Source: an uncultured Christensenella sp. | GTDB taxonomy: Bacteria > Bacillota > Clostridia > Christensenellales > Pumilibacteraceae | NCBI GenBank assembly: GCA_949948895.1 | Contig: CATLHE010000005.1 | Location: forward strand, 66,306-130,305 | Reading direction: 5' to 3' | Length of the DNA: 64,000 nucleotides | Part shown: piece by piece, positions 44,508 to 54,997 of the stretch | Layout of the letters: each line of letters starts with the position of its first letter | Numbering within the stretch: position 1 is the first letter of the stretch | The notes under the pieces: model-generated | What the model was told of the DNA's origin: nothing | Seen by the model: the letters and a program-made list of their open reading frames with translations, nothing else | Databases searched by the model: none | Position numbers and translations under genes: made by a program

Positions 44508-44536
44508 TTGACATTATGAATCATTAATGATATAAT
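44508..44536 (+). promoter_or_regulatory. Perfect consensus promoter of the protease locus
   Basis: TTGACA at 44508-44513, 17-nt spacer, TATAAT at 44531-44536. A short palindrome ATCATTAATGAT lies in the spacer and could bind a regulator. Confidence 0.8.
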
Positions 44537-44594: not shown

Positions 44595-45986
44595 ATGAAA
44601 ACCAAAACTGCAAGATATGCGCTTATGACGATGACGGCGGGGTTGGCATTTTCCGTAGTGTTTGCGGCAGCGTGCGTAAACTCTACGGGCGACGGTGTAT
44701 ATTCCGTACGCGCGGAAAGCGAGTGTGCGTTGCCCATCGAAACAAAACTCGATTGCGACAGCGAGGCGGCGCGCGTAGCGGCGGATCTTATCGAAATCGT
44801 AAGCGGATATAACGATACGGAAGAATCGGACAGCGAGTGGTCCGCTAGTAGCATAGAATATTACGCGCCCGCGTATATCGTGGAAGATGAAGAGTACGGC
44901 GTTTATTTCGACTTTGACGGGGATAACGGTTATGCCGTCATAAAGCCCGATAAGACTATATACGGATTAAACACGCGAGGCGATCTTGCCAATTTAAGAG
45001 AGTCGGACGTTGATTTGTATTACAGCTATATAGACGGGTTTATGTTTAAGGCGGCTGACGGCGAGCTCTTGCAGTTTGTAATGCCCGAATATGATAATAG
45101 CGATTATGTATCAGGTAATACGGGAACTGTCGTATATCCCGGTCAAAGTGAGGCGGGCGACGGGAAGATTAATCCGGCATACATAGATCAGTATGTTATA
45201 AAACGTTATCCGCTTGATTTTTACGAAAAGCGCAACCTTAATATGAGCATCGGCTATAATTGTGTAACGCAATATGAAACTAGTTATTATGTTAAGTGTT
45301 ATGCCGATTCCAATAAAAAACCAAGTGGTTGGACAGTGTCTGAAGGTAACTGTGTATTACACGCTATGTATAACGTTATGAGGAGTTGGGATAAAGCTGC
45401 ATACGTGAGTTTGGACAGTACAAAGACGCACGATCTAAGAACAAACATAAAACAAGATCCGTACTATATGGTGTTTAGTAACAGCACTTTTTTGCGCGAA
45501 AAAGATCCCGTTGACGACAAGCACACATACTATAAATGGGAGACTAATAGCGATAACTATTTGCAGTATATGCCGAAGCTTTACAGCGAAATCCGCGATT
45601 TTGCTTTGAAGAGAAACTATACCGTAGACGGATATTATTTTAAATATATACCCGAAACTATGGAGTATGTGGCAAATGTAACGCATGATAACGATATCAC
45701 GGTGAAGAGGACGACAAAGCCGTCGGACGTGTTTAACAGTATAAACAAACATCGCAGTTGCGTAATGGGTATCAATGACAGCAGCACGTACGGAAATCAT
45801 GCCGTGGCGGTCATGGGATATTATTCATATTATAAAGAAGTATACGTAAGCAAAGATTATACCAACAAAGTTTATCATTACTTTTATCTAATAGACGACG
45901 GATGGAGGGGTGACTTGCAGGTTTTTGATCCTAACACATCCGCGAATCCCAGTCTGGAATTTTTTTATCTTTTGTCGAGGTGTTAA
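44595..45986 (+). CDS. Exported papain-like cysteine peptidase
   Basis: A 463-residue exported protein: signal peptide with a lipobox-like AAAC (Cys27), a propeptide-like N-terminal half (SIEYYAPAYIVEDEEYGVYF resembles the pro-domain of C10/streptopain enzymes) and a catalytic half. Candidate residues are Cys253 in SEGNCVLHAMYNVMRSW, His402 in TYGNHAVAVMGYYSY and Asp434/435 in YFYLIDDGW, the order and wording of C39/C10-type papain folds. The ribosome site GGGGGAAG is good. The stop abuts the ATG of the first of three lipoproteins, so they form one operon. It probably acts on the cell surface; the target is unknown. Confidence 0.8.
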   Translation: MKTKTARYALMTMTAGLAFSVVFAAACVNSTGDGVYSVRAESECALPIETKLDCDSEAARVAADLIEIVSGYNDTEESDSEWSASSIEYYAPAYIVEDEEYGVYFDFDGDNGYAVIKPDKTIYGLNTRGDLANLRESDVDLYYSYIDGFMFKAADGELLQFVMPEYDNSDYVSGNTGTVVYPGQSEAGDGKINPAYIDQYVIKRYPLDFYEKRNLNMSIGYNCVTQYETSYYVKCYADSNKKPSGWTVSEGNCVLHAMYNVMRSWDKAAYVSLDSTKTHDLRTNIKQDPYYMVFSNSTFLREKDPVDDKHTYYKWETNSDNYLQYMPKLYSEIRDFALKRNYTVDGYYFKYIPETMEYVANVTHDNDITVKRTTKPSDVFNSINKHRSCVMGINDSSTYGNHAVAVMGYYSYYKEVYVSKDYTNKVYHYFYLIDDGWRGDLQVFDPNTSANPSLEFFYLLSRC

Positions 45987-46433
45987 ATGAAAAGAATCAT
46001 TTGTGTAATAATGGCAGCATTCATAGCATGTTGCTGTTTCGCTTGCACGGATAACGACGGTAAAAATTCAAGCACTCCGGCATGTCGGGGTATGGAAATA
46101 TATTTATATGATTCATTAGATAAACGAGAAAGGGTAGCCGGATTCAGTTGTTCTTTGGACGTAGATAAAGAATATATGCTCTATATTCTCGTTGGAACAA
46201 ACACATACAGGGGAGACGTACCAGAAAACATGCTCGTTGTGTTGGAATATGACGAAAGCAAACTTATGATGACCGAGCTTGATAGGAGTTACTATAGTAT
46301 ACGATGCTTGGATGAAGGTGAACACGATTTAAAAATAACGACACATTATAAGAAATTATATGGCGAGGCAAATCCTAATAGGTCGAGTATATTTATGTCA
46401 TGGGATTACAAAGTGCGCGGTGTTCGTAATTAG
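45987..46433 (+). CDS. Tandem lipoprotein copy 1
   Basis: A 148-residue lipoprotein: signal RIICVIMAAFIACC with several Cys and lipobox FACT. The mature domain (about 120 residues) is beta-rich: MEIYLYDSLDKRERVAGFSC, SLDVDKEYMLYILVG, VPENMLVVLEYDESKLMMTE, YYSIRCLDEGEHDLKITTHY, SSIFMSWDYKVRGVRN. The ending looks like an immunoglobulin-like strand pair. It starts directly after the protease stop, with GAGGTG as ribosome site. It is about 85 percent like copies 2 and 3 by eye. A chagasin-like inhibitor or substrate of the protease is a possible role, but unproven. Confidence 0.8.
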   Translation: MKRIICVIMAAFIACCCFACTDNDGKNSSTPACRGMEIYLYDSLDKRERVAGFSCSLDVDKEYMLYILVGTNTYRGDVPENMLVVLEYDESKLMMTELDRSYYSIRCLDEGEHDLKITTHYKKLYGEANPNRSSIFMSWDYKVRGVRN

Positions 46434-46452
46434 GGCGTTGCCGAGGTGTTAA

Positions 46453-46902
46453 ATGAAAAGAATGATTTGTGTAATAATGGCGGCGTTTATTGCATGTTGC
46501 TGTTTCGCTTGTACGGATAACGACGGTAAAAATTCAAGCACCCCGGCGTATCGGGGTATGGACCTATATTTATATGATTCATTGGAGAAAAGAGAAAGGA
46601 TAAGCGGGCATGTTTTTTCATTAGACGTAGATAAAGAATATATGCTCTATATTTCCGTTGCAACAAGCCCCACATACAGGGTAGACGTGCCCGAATATAT
46701 GCTCGTCGTGTTGGAATATGACGAAAGCAAATTGATGATGACCGAGCTTGATAGGAGTTACTATAGTATACGATGCTTAGAGGAAGGCGAACACGATTTA
46801 AAAATAACGACACATTATAAAAAATTATATTACGAGGCAAATCCTAATAGGTCGAGTATATTTATGTCATGGGATTACAAAATATGCGGTGTCTGTAATT
46901 AG
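46453..46902 (+). CDS. Tandem lipoprotein copy 2
   Basis: A 149-residue paralogue of the preceding gene, with the same signal peptide, lipobox FACT and domain. Differences cluster in short patches (DLYLYDSLEKRERISGHVFS; VATSPTYRVDVPEYMLVVLE), while DVDKEYMLYI and YDESKLMMTELDRSYYSIRC are kept, which fits recent duplication followed by divergence of exposed loops. The last residues (KICGVCN) bring in two extra cysteines. The 19-nt spacer before it carries the same GCGTTGCCGAGGTG sequence that follows copy 3. Confidence 0.8.
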   Translation: MKRMICVIMAAFIACCCFACTDNDGKNSSTPAYRGMDLYLYDSLEKRERISGHVFSLDVDKEYMLYISVATSPTYRVDVPEYMLVVLEYDESKLMMTELDRSYYSIRCLEEGEHDLKITTHYKKLYYEANPNRSSIFMSWDYKICGVCN

Positions 46903-46940
46903 ACGGATCAATATCGAGTATCTTTTACCGAGGTGCTGAA

Positions 46941-47387
46941 ATGAAAAGAACTATTAGTGTAATAATGGCGGTATTTATTTCCTGTTTCTGTTTCGCTTGT
47001 ACGGATAACGACGGTAAAAATCCCAGTACGCCCCAGCACGTGGGCATGGGCGTGTATTTATATGATTCCTTAGAACAAAGGGAGCGGATAACCGGATTTG
47101 GTTTTTCATTGGACGTAGATAAAGAATACATGCTTTATATTACTGTTATAACAAACCACTATAATGGAGACGTACCAGAAAACATGTTCGTCGTGTTAGA
47201 ATATGACGAAAGTAAATTGATGATGACCGAACTTGAAAAAAGTTATTACAGCATACGGTGCTTGGAGGAAGGTGAACACGATTTAAAAATGACGATACAT
47301 TATAAAAAATTGTATGATGAAACAAATCCTAATTTGTCGAGTATATTTATGTCATGGGATTACAAAGTGCGTGGTGTTCGTAATTAG
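46941..47387 (+). CDS. Tandem lipoprotein copy 3
   Basis: A 148-residue paralogue of copies 1 and 2. The signal peptide has diverged most (RTISVIMAVFISCFCFACTD), the core is kept (DVDKEYMLYITVITNHYNGD, VPENMFVVLEYDESKLMMTE). The DNA after its stop repeats the spacer that follows copy 1 (GTAATTAGGGCGTTGCCGAG), marking the end of the duplicated unit. It is the last lipoprotein before the radical SAM gene, 85 nt downstream. Confidence 0.8.
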   Translation: MKRTISVIMAVFISCFCFACTDNDGKNPSTPQHVGMGVYLYDSLEQRERITGFGFSLDVDKEYMLYITVITNHYNGDVPENMFVVLEYDESKLMMTELEKSYYSIRCLEEGEHDLKMTIHYKKLYDETNPNLSSIFMSWDYKVRGVRN

Positions 47388-47472
47388 GGCGTTGCCGAGG
47401 TGCGGCAGCTAAAATAAAATCGAGGTACACGAGATAAATAAAGCGGATAAATTAAATGATAAAAATACTTGC

Positions 47473-48771
47473 GTGAGCAAGATGCGAGAAAACGTCGCGT
47501 TTTCGCCTGCTTATGTGCGTACTGTCACGATGTGCGTGCATTTGAGTTCTTCTTGCAATCTGCGCTGTAAGTACTGTTTTTCCGATCACAAAGGCGACGA
47601 TCTTACTATAGACGAGATCAAGCGGTTTATCGATATAGTCACCGTTATCTATCCGCGCGCTGACAGATACATAGTCGATATGTCGGGCTCGGGCGAACCG
47701 CTGTTGCGCTTAGCCGATATAGTTACGATTGCCGATTACTGCAAAACATTGAGCGACCGTTTTGTGCGCGAATTTTTGCCGACGTTTGTTACAAACGGAA
47801 CATTGCTCGATAAGCAAACGGTAAAGCGGCTTCAAGACGCCGGCGTAATATTCGGAGTCAGTATCGACGGGACAAGAGCCATACACGATAAAAACAGAGT
47901 TTTTTGCGACGGGCGCGGCAGTTACGATACGGTCATGCGCAATGTGGAAAATATAGAGCACCGTGAATATTTGGGCGCGGCTGTAACGTACGGCGACGGT
48001 GATTTATTAACAACGTTTGAGTCGGTAGTCGGGCTTTTTCCGACCGTCAGTATGAAGCCGATGCGTTATATCGATAAGTCGATAGACTCCGACCGCGTAT
48101 GTAAAGAATATGATAAGCTTGTAGAATTTTTATATTCCGCGCACGTTAAAAACGACACGCCGTATATCTTTTCGCTTTTGCGCGGCGATGATTATTTCGG
48201 TAAGTTTTTAAAGCGCGTCGTTCTCGGTGTTGCCGTATACGGGCGCTGCGATGCGGGGATAGGTCGTTTCGCGCTTTGTTCGGACAGAAAAATATACTGC
48301 TGTCCCGCAGGTCTCGGTAAGCCCGAATGTGAAATGGGCGATCTCGATACCGGCATACGTTTAAGCCGTGTGGAAAAAATGTGGCGGTCGCAAATCAATG
48401 AAGTCTGTTGCGACTGTCGCGCGCGTTTTGTGTGCGGCGGAGAATGTAAGATAGTCTCGCACAATAAGTACGGCAGGTTAGACGGGATCGATCCCGTTAT
48501 GTGTAGAATAAAGCGCCATTTATACGATCTTGCCGTCATCTATCGCGATCGCCTTAAAGCGGAAGCCCCCGAACTGTACGGCGAGCTCGTTGACGAAATC
48601 AAAAAAACGGAATCGTACTACTTGCCCGATAACGATCTTATAGCGGCGGTAACGCTATCGCATGGCGCGTACACTTTTACCGAGTTAAAGGCGATAAAGG
48701 ACAGTTCGCCCGATGAGTTTTACCGCATTTTCAATGCATTACATAAAAATTCATGCGAGCTTTGCAGTTGA
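47473..48771 (+). CDS. Radical SAM/SPASM domain enzyme
   Basis: A 432-residue peptide/protein-modifying type radical SAM enzyme. The 4Fe-4S/SAM motif is CNLRCKYC (Cys28, 32, 35), followed by DMSGSGEPLLR and TFVTNGTLLD, typical of the fold. The SPASM end shows auxiliary-cluster cysteines: CDAGIGRFALC, YCCPAGLGKPEC and the C-x2-C-x5-C-x3-C pattern in CCDCRARFVCGGEC with a last C in DPVMCRIKRH. The C-terminal tail ends KNSCELCS. The start is GTG 47473 or ATG 47482; neither has a clear ribosome site. Such enzymes modify peptides (thioethers, sulfatase formylglycine). Its position after the protease and lipoproteins suggests that these are its substrates or that it matures an unseen peptide. Confidence 0.85.
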   Translation: MSKMRENVAFSPAYVRTVTMCVHLSSSCNLRCKYCFSDHKGDDLTIDEIKRFIDIVTVIYPRADRYIVDMSGSGEPLLRLADIVTIADYCKTLSDRFVREFLPTFVTNGTLLDKQTVKRLQDAGVIFGVSIDGTRAIHDKNRVFCDGRGSYDTVMRNVENIEHREYLGAAVTYGDGDLLTTFESVVGLFPTVSMKPMRYIDKSIDSDRVCKEYDKLVEFLYSAHVKNDTPYIFSLLRGDDYFGKFLKRVVLGVAVYGRCDAGIGRFALCSDRKIYCCPAGLGKPECEMGDLDTGIRLSRVEKMWRSQINEVCCDCRARFVCGGECKIVSHNKYGRLDGIDPVMCRIKRHLYDLAVIYRDRLKAEAPELYGELVDEIKKTESYYLPDNDLIAAVTLSHGAYTFTELKAIKDSSPDEFYRIFNALHKNSCELCS

Positions 48772-53824: not shown

Positions 53825-54997
53825 ATGAGAGAGTATAAACTGCTTATAAGCCATGTTGGAAAAGACGAAGAACTCGCGATGAAGATAGTCCGCGCACTCG
53901 ACGGGCGAGTTTTTGAGTGCGACGGCGAGGAGAGCTTTACCGTAAAGCCTATTTATATGGAGAGCAAGACCGACGGCTGTCACGGCGATTTTATGGAGTG
54001 GTCGGCGAAAGCGGTAAAACGCGCGGACGGAGTGCTTGCCATAGTCACGCATAACACGGCGGAAACGAAAACGGCGGACGACGGCACGGAAGCGAACGTT
54101 AAAGTCGTGTATGACGAGATATCGTACGCGCGGCAAAAGTTAAAGGATATTGTATTATTCTTCGAGAGCGGCTTGGTTTTGGACGACGGCTTCGAACTGA
54201 TCATACAAAACATGAAGCGCGTGTACATGTGGGGCGAAATACCCGACGCGATAGAAGACGCCATAAACGACGTGGCACTTCACGCGCGGCGCAGGTTCGG
54301 CGGAAACCCGCTATTGGAATATGCGGGAAAAATAGCGGTCAAGCTCGTGCGGGCAAAGATACCTGATACATCTGAATACATAGGAAGAAGTGATAAGATA
54401 GAAGAGATAGACGATAACTTTGCGGCGGGTAAAAAGGTTGTGTGCATTACGGGCTTCGGCGGTATAGGCAAGACCACGCTCGCCAAAATGTATGCCAAGG
54501 CGCACGCGGACGAGCCTGTCGCTATTTACTACTGCGCGGGCGAAGAGGGCACGCTCAAAAACGCTATAGTCGGTCTCGGAGTGGAGTACGACGACCCAGA
54601 GTACGGGAGTATGACCTTTGATCAAAAGTACGCGCTCCGCATAAAACAGCTTCAAAATTTAGAGGTCAAGACGCTCGTTATAATAGACAACTTTAATGCA
54701 GACTTCGGAGCAGTGGCAAATCGTGAAACGCTTACCGACCTTGCGGCTTTGGATAAATGCAGGGTAATAATATCGTCGTGGCGAAAAGTGGATCGTAACG
54801 ACGTCGGACTTGTGGACGTTGGGAGGCTCTCCGATGACGAACTTAAAGAGCTGTTTTATCGTGACTCGCATTGCGAACGCACGGAAAAGAACAACGGGCT
54901 GATTGACAAGCTTATAGAGCGCACAAACGGTCACACCATGACGATGGAGCTCGCGGCAAAAGCGGTAGGTATCGACGAGAACGGCGTGAGCTTGTAA
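53825..54997 (+). CDS. TIR-like plus NB-ARC/STAND NTPase, N-terminal part of a split gene
   Basis: 390 residues. Residues 1-140 resemble a TIR-type effector (YKLLISHVGKDEELAMKIVR; ADGVLAIVTHNTAETKTADD; DEISYARQKLKDIVLFFESG). Residues 185-385 are a STAND/NB-ARC ATPase with Walker A GFGGIGKTT (210-218), Walker B TLVIIDNF (283-290) and sensor RVIISSWR. The frame ends at TAA 54995-54997, but the same frame continues without another stop for about 475 codons, so the gene was one TIR-STAND-TPR protein and a CAA-to-TAA change is the simplest cause. STAND proteins of this layout act as anti-phage sensors; here the role is inferred. Without readthrough the sensor part is lost. Confidence 0.8.
   Translation: MREYKLLISHVGKDEELAMKIVRALDGRVFECDGEESFTVKPIYMESKTDGCHGDFMEWSAKAVKRADGVLAIVTHNTAETKTADDGTEANVKVVYDEISYARQKLKDIVLFFESGLVLDDGFELIIQNMKRVYMWGEIPDAIEDAINDVALHARRRFGGNPLLEYAGKIAVKLVRAKIPDTSEYIGRSDKIEEIDDNFAAGKKVVCITGFGGIGKTTLAKMYAKAHADEPVAIYYCAGEEGTLKNAIVGLGVEYDDPEYGSMTFDQKYALRIKQLQNLEVKTLVIIDNFNADFGAVANRETLTDLAALDKCRVIISSWRKVDRNDVGLVDVGRLSDDELKELFYRDSHCERTEKNNGLIDKLIERTNGHTMTMELAAKAVGIDENGVSL

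Follow-up and report, generated by a model that had tools for sequence, protein, structure and literature searches.

Radical S-adenosylmethionine (SAM) enzymes with a SPASM domain are known as maturases mainly of short peptides or of single enzyme families. The anaerobic sulfatase maturases oxidise a cysteine of an exported protein before its export. In the LPXTG/sortase and PEP-CTERM/exosortase systems, a single enzyme family reads a short C-terminal tag that exported proteins of unrelated kinds have in common; a system in which a radical SAM enzyme goes with a transferable tag of this sort is not known to us. Here we analyse a locus at positions 44,595 to 48,771 of a 64,000-nucleotide stretch of DNA from an uncultured Christensenella sp. 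(contig CATLHE010000005.1; the whole stretch is called the window hereafter). On its + strand, the gene of an exported-type, papain-like protein of 463 amino acids (44595..45986) is followed by three lipoprotein genes and by the gene of a radical SAM/SPASM enzyme of 432 amino acids (47473..48771). With a probability of roughly 0.7, we propose that this locus belongs to a wider, dispersed group in which such an enzyme is encoded beside an exported-type protein ending in cysteine and modifies that cysteine before export; in the window, the 463-residue protein would be the likely target. We call the system new in kind because of that pairing. A literature search confined to open-access papers in PMC found no description of it, and the group of enzymes with Cys-tailed exported proteins is apparently undescribed so far. 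On a more cautious view, it may count as a variant of radical SAM protein maturation until its product is known.

Several described systems come close. In the portion of the PapB study cited here, the enzyme links Cys to Asp or Glu in CX3D/E motifs of a peptide, with Cys joined to the Asp side chain (PMC9413430). PapB-type ranthipeptide maturases (NF047865) likewise combine a radical SAM and a SPASM domain, and theirs is the top curated model here; unlike PapB as described in that portion, the cysteine in question terminates a large exported-type protein, and the presence of acidic residues varies. SCIFF and ScfB-like maturases (TIGR03974, NF040492) are related in enzyme sequence, but the enzymes tested here stay below their cut-offs, and in seven scanned loci no conserved small Cys-rich open reading frame (ORF) was found next to the enzyme. 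Unlike the sulfatase maturases (TIGR03942), the enzymes have many unrelated partner families and a C-terminal candidate site. A short, shared C-terminal tag recalls LPXTG/sortase and PEP-CTERM/exosortase, except that the enzyme is a radical SAM protein and not a transpeptidase; we rejected a tag of either type, as no helix and basic tail follow the motif and the collected partners, selected for this feature, end in Cys. Finally, staphopain-staphostatin, SpeB-Spi and Bfp-Bfi likewise consist of an exported papain-like protease and an adjoining small protein gene; they differ in that no radical SAM enzyme is mentioned for them in the cited part of the source (PMC2873492).

Strong matches to the enzyme come from 5 of 101 relatives, all within the genus (5 of the 20 genus genomes covered); a further 24 weaker matches among the relatives were left out of the neighbour examination. 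A papain-like exported-type protein lies near the enzyme in all five genomes, as judged by alignment and by eye. The original prediction had named absence of the neighbourhood from every relative as grounds for abandoning it; this check did not refute it. Each of the other four enzyme-bearing species of the genus again pairs the enzyme with a protease-like gene, a recurrence that is more than chance. Gene order varies: the relatives have the enzyme first and then the protease, while in the window the enzyme comes last. The five genomes together encode six protease-like proteins, two of them, in G007, very different, and every one of the six has a C-terminal Arg-Cys (LSRC, VARC, LSRC, LPRC, LSRC and LPRC). 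In the window this tail is Leu-Ser-Arg-Cys (codons 45972..45983, +), which alignment and tail comparison single out as the proposed recognition and modification site.

Linkage to Cys-ended proteins extends far beyond the genus. A contig scan returned three closer relatives of the enzyme (37, 37 and 45% in the best segment, the next match dropping to 29%), from metagenome-assembled genomes of Erysipelotrichaceae, Bacilli and Tenericutes. Each has a Cys-ended neighbour: a DUF6973 protein ending PPYC, a papain-like protein ending WPSC, and a papain-like protein of another type ending PSSC, the last beside a broken enzyme gene. The idea of a C-terminal cysteine was formed on the first eight loci, and every further match at the thresholds used was then examined. 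Within one Bacilli family, 14 of 224 genomes have such matches; two other families have them in 4/18 and 7/34, and the class as a whole in 12 of 395 genomes, three of them new. In 30 of 36 loci and in 2 of 4 later ones, the enzyme has a Cys-ended ORF of at least 80 amino acids no more than 3.5 kb away, giving 32 of 40; among the loci seen after the idea was formed, 24 of 32 fit. A mechanical rule would also score L235 as positive (33/40), but we counted it as a miss, since its ORF looks like a piece of an ABC transporter.

Among ORFs of at least 100 amino acids, a terminal Cys is found in 35 of the 236 that lie no more than 3.5 kb from the enzyme, versus 3 of 150 further off in the same loci. 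Near other radical SAM maturases, the same count gives 3 of 419, and far from them 2 of 298. A Cys-ended neighbour was found in 3 of 71 such control loci, 6 of the initial 77 having been dropped for want of an ORF reaching the enzyme profile. An alternative background of 2/332 omits all near Cys-ended ORFs by construction, and the near/far split is the fairer comparison. A C-terminal Cys could in principle be chance or a habit of low-GC exported proteins in one lineage, and Bacilli-type genomes do supply most loci. The general background of about 1% (9/891, three of the nine being partners), the scarcity further away in the same loci and the lack of a Cys tail in homologues without the enzyme (0/6, see below) make this explanation highly improbable.

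We gathered 35 Cys-ended proteins, which form 18 BLAST clusters; L046 and L191 are not beside the enzyme, and two more were left out, a protease copy in G433 cut by a contig end and a second, split copy in L170. The clusters hide some remote kinship: L051 and L180 both belong to DUF6973, and several clusters are papain-like. Partner families comprise papain-like, trypsin-like, MACPF and DUF6973 proteins and others without a family name, the Pfam assignments being C39_2 (L171), MACPF (L212, E = 6e-10), trypsin-like (L210) and DUF6973. They share the tail hydrophobic-[Pro/Ser]-x-Cys-stop. Position -3 is Pro or Ser in 24 of 33 distinct tails (36 of 394 other ORFs), and position -4 is hydrophobic (L, W, V, I, F, P, Y or M) in 30 of 33 (137 of 394). 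In L210 (3353-7937), the enzyme gene lies between papain-like and trypsin-like proteins that both end WPTC; in L212 (1672-3270), the enzyme gene overlaps at its end with the gene of a perforin-type (MACPF) protein whose tail is YSMC. An exact C-terminal motif on unrelated proteins looks like the recognition site of one enzyme, and we infer that the terminal Cys is its substrate. For radical SAM enzymes, the sites of recognition and of modification often differ, and many partners hold several other cysteines, up to 11; the enzyme might then modify a different part of the exported protein, the terminal Cys serving as docking handle, metal ligand or disulphide partner. We consider this rather unlikely, given 18 BLAST clusters with no other obvious common feature and a shared signal in the last four residues.

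Homologues of the papain-like protein offer a comparison between genomes with and without the enzyme. They are matched in 7 of 396 genomes of the window's order. In G089, G097, G132, G314 and G379, the best enzyme matches are weak (E from 6e-18 to 2e-33), and a Bacilli genome with a homologue, G540, has no enzyme match at 1e-40. None of these six homologues without a close enzyme ends in Cys, versus 12 of 12 uncut cluster members with the enzyme, one of which (L191) is on a different contig from it; Fisher's test gives p = 5.4e-5 with relatedness ignored.

Several points weigh against modification of the terminal Cys. The contrast between papain-like proteins with and without the Cys requires a single change on their tree and thus amounts to one event, so that recurrence in unrelated families is the stronger argument. 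The partners were selected for a C-terminal Cys, and the PapB-like acceptors Asp and Glu are not constant, occurring in 13 of 33 tails. Eight of the 40 loci do not fit. Four of these (L169, L173, L182 and L216) are truncated by contig ends; L209 has its full context and no Cys-ended neighbour, although the L210 and L211 copies of the same genome have them. L214 (657-5486) and L233 (2347-7987) represent one enzyme subclade, with ABC-transporter genes and proteins of 260-300 amino acids and no Cys-ended partner; this subclade possibly acts on a different substrate. L235 lies outside the enzyme clade, and its sole Cys-ended neighbour is the ABC-transporter-like ORF. Among the positives, four are weak: L167 (other strand, past two regulators), L181 (86 amino acids), L213 (106 amino acids) and L053 (enzyme gene broken). 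A hydrophobic, exported-type start is clear in partners of 26 of 30 positive loci, and also in L234 but not in L232. Lastly, a homologue without the catalytic half is not Cys-ended in G019, an enzyme-bearing genome (L049); nor is a similar one in G012, which has no close enzyme.

The window enzyme scores 51.1 bits with Pfam PF04055 (cut-off 29.5) and carries both the CX3CX2C cluster motif (CNLRCKYC, 47554..47577, +) and a CX2CX5CX3C SPASM motif region (CCDCRARFVCGGEC, 48406..48447, +), which together place it in the radical SAM/SPASM superfamily. The SPASM domain model TIGR04085 passes its own cut-off in L171 and L210. When 37 enzymes are placed with 6 controls on a midpoint-rooted tree, 36 of the enzymes share one clade at support 95/87; of these, 34 group together at 100/98, and L235 falls among the controls. 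Among the 25 best curated models listed per protein, no maturase cut-off is reached by any tested clade member. The PapB model ranks first with the window enzyme and with four other members, and it matches all 14 members of the enzyme alignment (A6), yet the scores of 134.9 for the window enzyme and 106.1 to 163 for the four others fall short of its cut-off of 340. Assignment of the window enzyme to SCIFF maturases (108.5 versus 425, with no adjacent SCIFF-like ORF among those scanned) or anaerobic sulfatase maturases (66.2 versus 349.45) was rejected likewise, and the ScfB-like model also stays below its cut-off (117.2 versus 855). Three loci hold the enzyme gene in pieces (L053:2167-3919, L181:5316-6625 and L219:5180-6611), through frameshift, deletion or assembly error. 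On a 4-kb contig, the enzyme gene is adjoined by a subtilisin-like protein (Pfam S8) that is not Cys-ended (L173:1902-3884).

The nearest curated models are the PapB, ScfB-like, nif11, SCIFF and QhpD maturases (NCBIfam names), which act on ribosomally synthesised and post-translationally modified peptides (RiPPs). The enzyme could accordingly be a RiPP or sulfatase-type maturase that lies here by chance and has its substrate elsewhere in the genome, all the more as precursor scans covered enzyme neighbourhoods only. In seven scanned loci, no conserved small precursor ORF was found beside the enzyme among ORFs with a simple ribosome-site pattern, and neither an adjoining short RiPP precursor nor a PapB-type one with CX3D/E motifs was retained as a candidate. 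These scans, the distance from the curated cut-offs (134.9 against 340 for PapB) and a linkage to Cys-ended proteins that recurs in many species leave a chance placement improbable.

We return to the terminal Cys as the favoured site. The secreted effector-type protein has a hydrophobic-[Pro/Ser]-x-Cys-COOH end, and the dedicated radical SAM/SPASM enzyme would most likely modify its terminal Cys in the cytosol, while the preprotein is still unfolded. The modified preprotein would then be exported via Sec, and the small lipoproteins, often present, would hold the secreted protease in check at the surface of the producing cell. The original prediction had, as one possibility, the enzyme modify a Cys or Ser of the protease or of the lipoproteins before export: the genomic data strongly support a protease Cys, at a C-terminal position that had not been named, and no evidence was found for the lipoproteins.

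The chemistry is less firmly indicated than the site, and sulphur chemistry is expected. Given the site, we tentatively rank a C-terminal thioether ring or cap first, at somewhat less than even odds, because thioether formation is what most of the nearest curated maturase families carry out. A direct change to the Cys, by oxidation or decarboxylation, ranks second, as a plausible though still less probable outcome, Cys and its terminal position being the sole constant features of the substrate. The lack of a constant acidic residue means either that the acceptor differs from that of PapB or that the Cys itself is oxidised or decarboxylated.

The proteases and the MACPF protein look like secreted antagonists. 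More speculatively, hydrophobic-[Pro/Ser]-x-Cys might be a transferable tag that marks such antagonists, proteases and pore-forming-type proteins; the enzyme would render the terminal Cys reactive or ring-closed, coupling the effector to the cell surface or to a target while the lipoproteins shield the producer. That would be a sortase-like logic carried out by radical chemistry, which we find conceivable but doubtful. One enzyme clade tracks a short C-terminal tail over 18 BLAST clusters, from which we predict a protein modification and a type of protein tag that are both new. A function is thereby predicted for an enzyme clade that has escaped curation and for numerous as yet uncharacterised proteins of exported type in uncultured Bacillota. 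Should the modified tail couple to something, a labelling tool could possibly be derived from it.

In the window, five genes on one strand with small gaps do follow a perfect promoter-like site, in line with the original description. The promoter-like site of sigma-70 type (TTGACA-17-TATAAT, 44508..44536, +) agrees with the consensus at 12 of 12 positions, a consensus match only, and TG precedes its second hexamer. The gaps between the five ORFs are 0, 19, 38 and 85 bases, and a scan of the 85 bases before the enzyme gene found no terminator-like site on the + strand. The enzyme ORF begins with GTG and its frame is open for about 20 more codons upstream, which makes the start uncertain.

The 463-residue protein appears papain-like (C39_2/C10-like), a label that rests on family context. 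It has a hydrophobic N-terminus (score 2.5), a presumed catalytic Cys253 (GNC, codon 45351..45353, +) located by alignments, and a presumed catalytic His402 (45798..45800, +) invariant in both alignments; Cys and His are invariant in the 14-row papain-like alignment A7. At E 0.01 or better, Pfam recognises C39_2 in three and C10 in one of 14 papain-like members. The original description as an exported papain-like protease is plausible in view of L171, a family member that passes the Peptidase_C39_2 cut-off (29.1 versus 24), whereas the window protein alone remains below it (E 0.69). No convincing match came from searches of solved structures, made with the papain-like profiles and also with L175, L212 and L176. 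In the G019 copy (L044:7945-9300), Tyr replaces the catalytic Cys and the LPRC tail is retained in the alignment; this protein may be a pseudoprotease. Two ORFs beside sigma/anti-sigma-like genes (L048:5840-6607 and L049:8375-8977) encode homologues restricted to the N-terminal region of the papain-like protein and lacking its catalytic half.

Lipoprotein 1 (45987..46433, +, 148 amino acids), the proposed protease inhibitor, starts directly after the protease gene, a position kept in relatives; lipoproteins 2 (46453..46902, +, 149 amino acids) and 3 (46941..47387, +, 148 amino acids) are 80-86% identical to it, which agrees with the three tandem paralogues first noted. Their type was assigned only by eye and by regular expression, and those tested reach no Pfam cut-off. 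Close relatives of the three occur in 1 of 101 genomes searched, the window genome itself; matches between species are weak and may owe partly to signal peptides. By eye, lipoprotein-type genes follow the protease-like protein in the window, G003, G016 and G019, and stand behind both protease-like copies of G007, the second of which is on another contig. By regular expression, they neighbour 15 of 36 loci (L167 was left out, its match being the partner itself), and the expression misses L044 and L045, both of which have them by eye. They are frequent across loci and not universal.

One or two lipoprotein-type genes directly downstream are kept in all six papain-like homologues without a close enzyme, as seen by eye. 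We rejected the lipoproteins as enzyme substrates, since they accompany the protease without the enzyme and nothing was found in favour. Staphopain-staphostatin and the Bacteroides Bfp-Bfi pairs have a small inhibitor gene directly beside the protease, and some Bfi are predicted lipoproteins, according to the section of the source cited (PMC2873492). A small protein encoded directly beside the protease is what we find here. Because protease and downstream lipoprotein stay together in 6/6 cases without the enzyme, in the layout of these known pairs, the lipoproteins most likely act on the producer's surface as inhibitors of the secreted protease, which they accompany with or without the enzyme. 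Inhibition, as first suggested, would fit the layout. They could instead be receptors or substrates of the protease: differing tandem copies, three here and four in L042, might be diversifying targets. We find this alternative less likely in view of the conserved placement just downstream, which in the cited section is that of protease-inhibitor pairs (PMC2873492).

At several loci, a sigma-factor-like gene is followed by an anti-sigma-like membrane protein (L043:7436-8708, L044:5196-6494, L048:4482-5755, L049:9058-10305, L052:5313-6462 and L167:5396-6578). Pfam finds sigma-70 regions in L043 and L052, and the remaining sigma-like genes were recognised by eye; such neighbours suggest regulated expression. 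Elsewhere in the window, an ORF at 53825-54997 has a TIR-like start and a GFGGIGKTT nucleotide-binding stretch and by eye resembles STAND-type NTPases.

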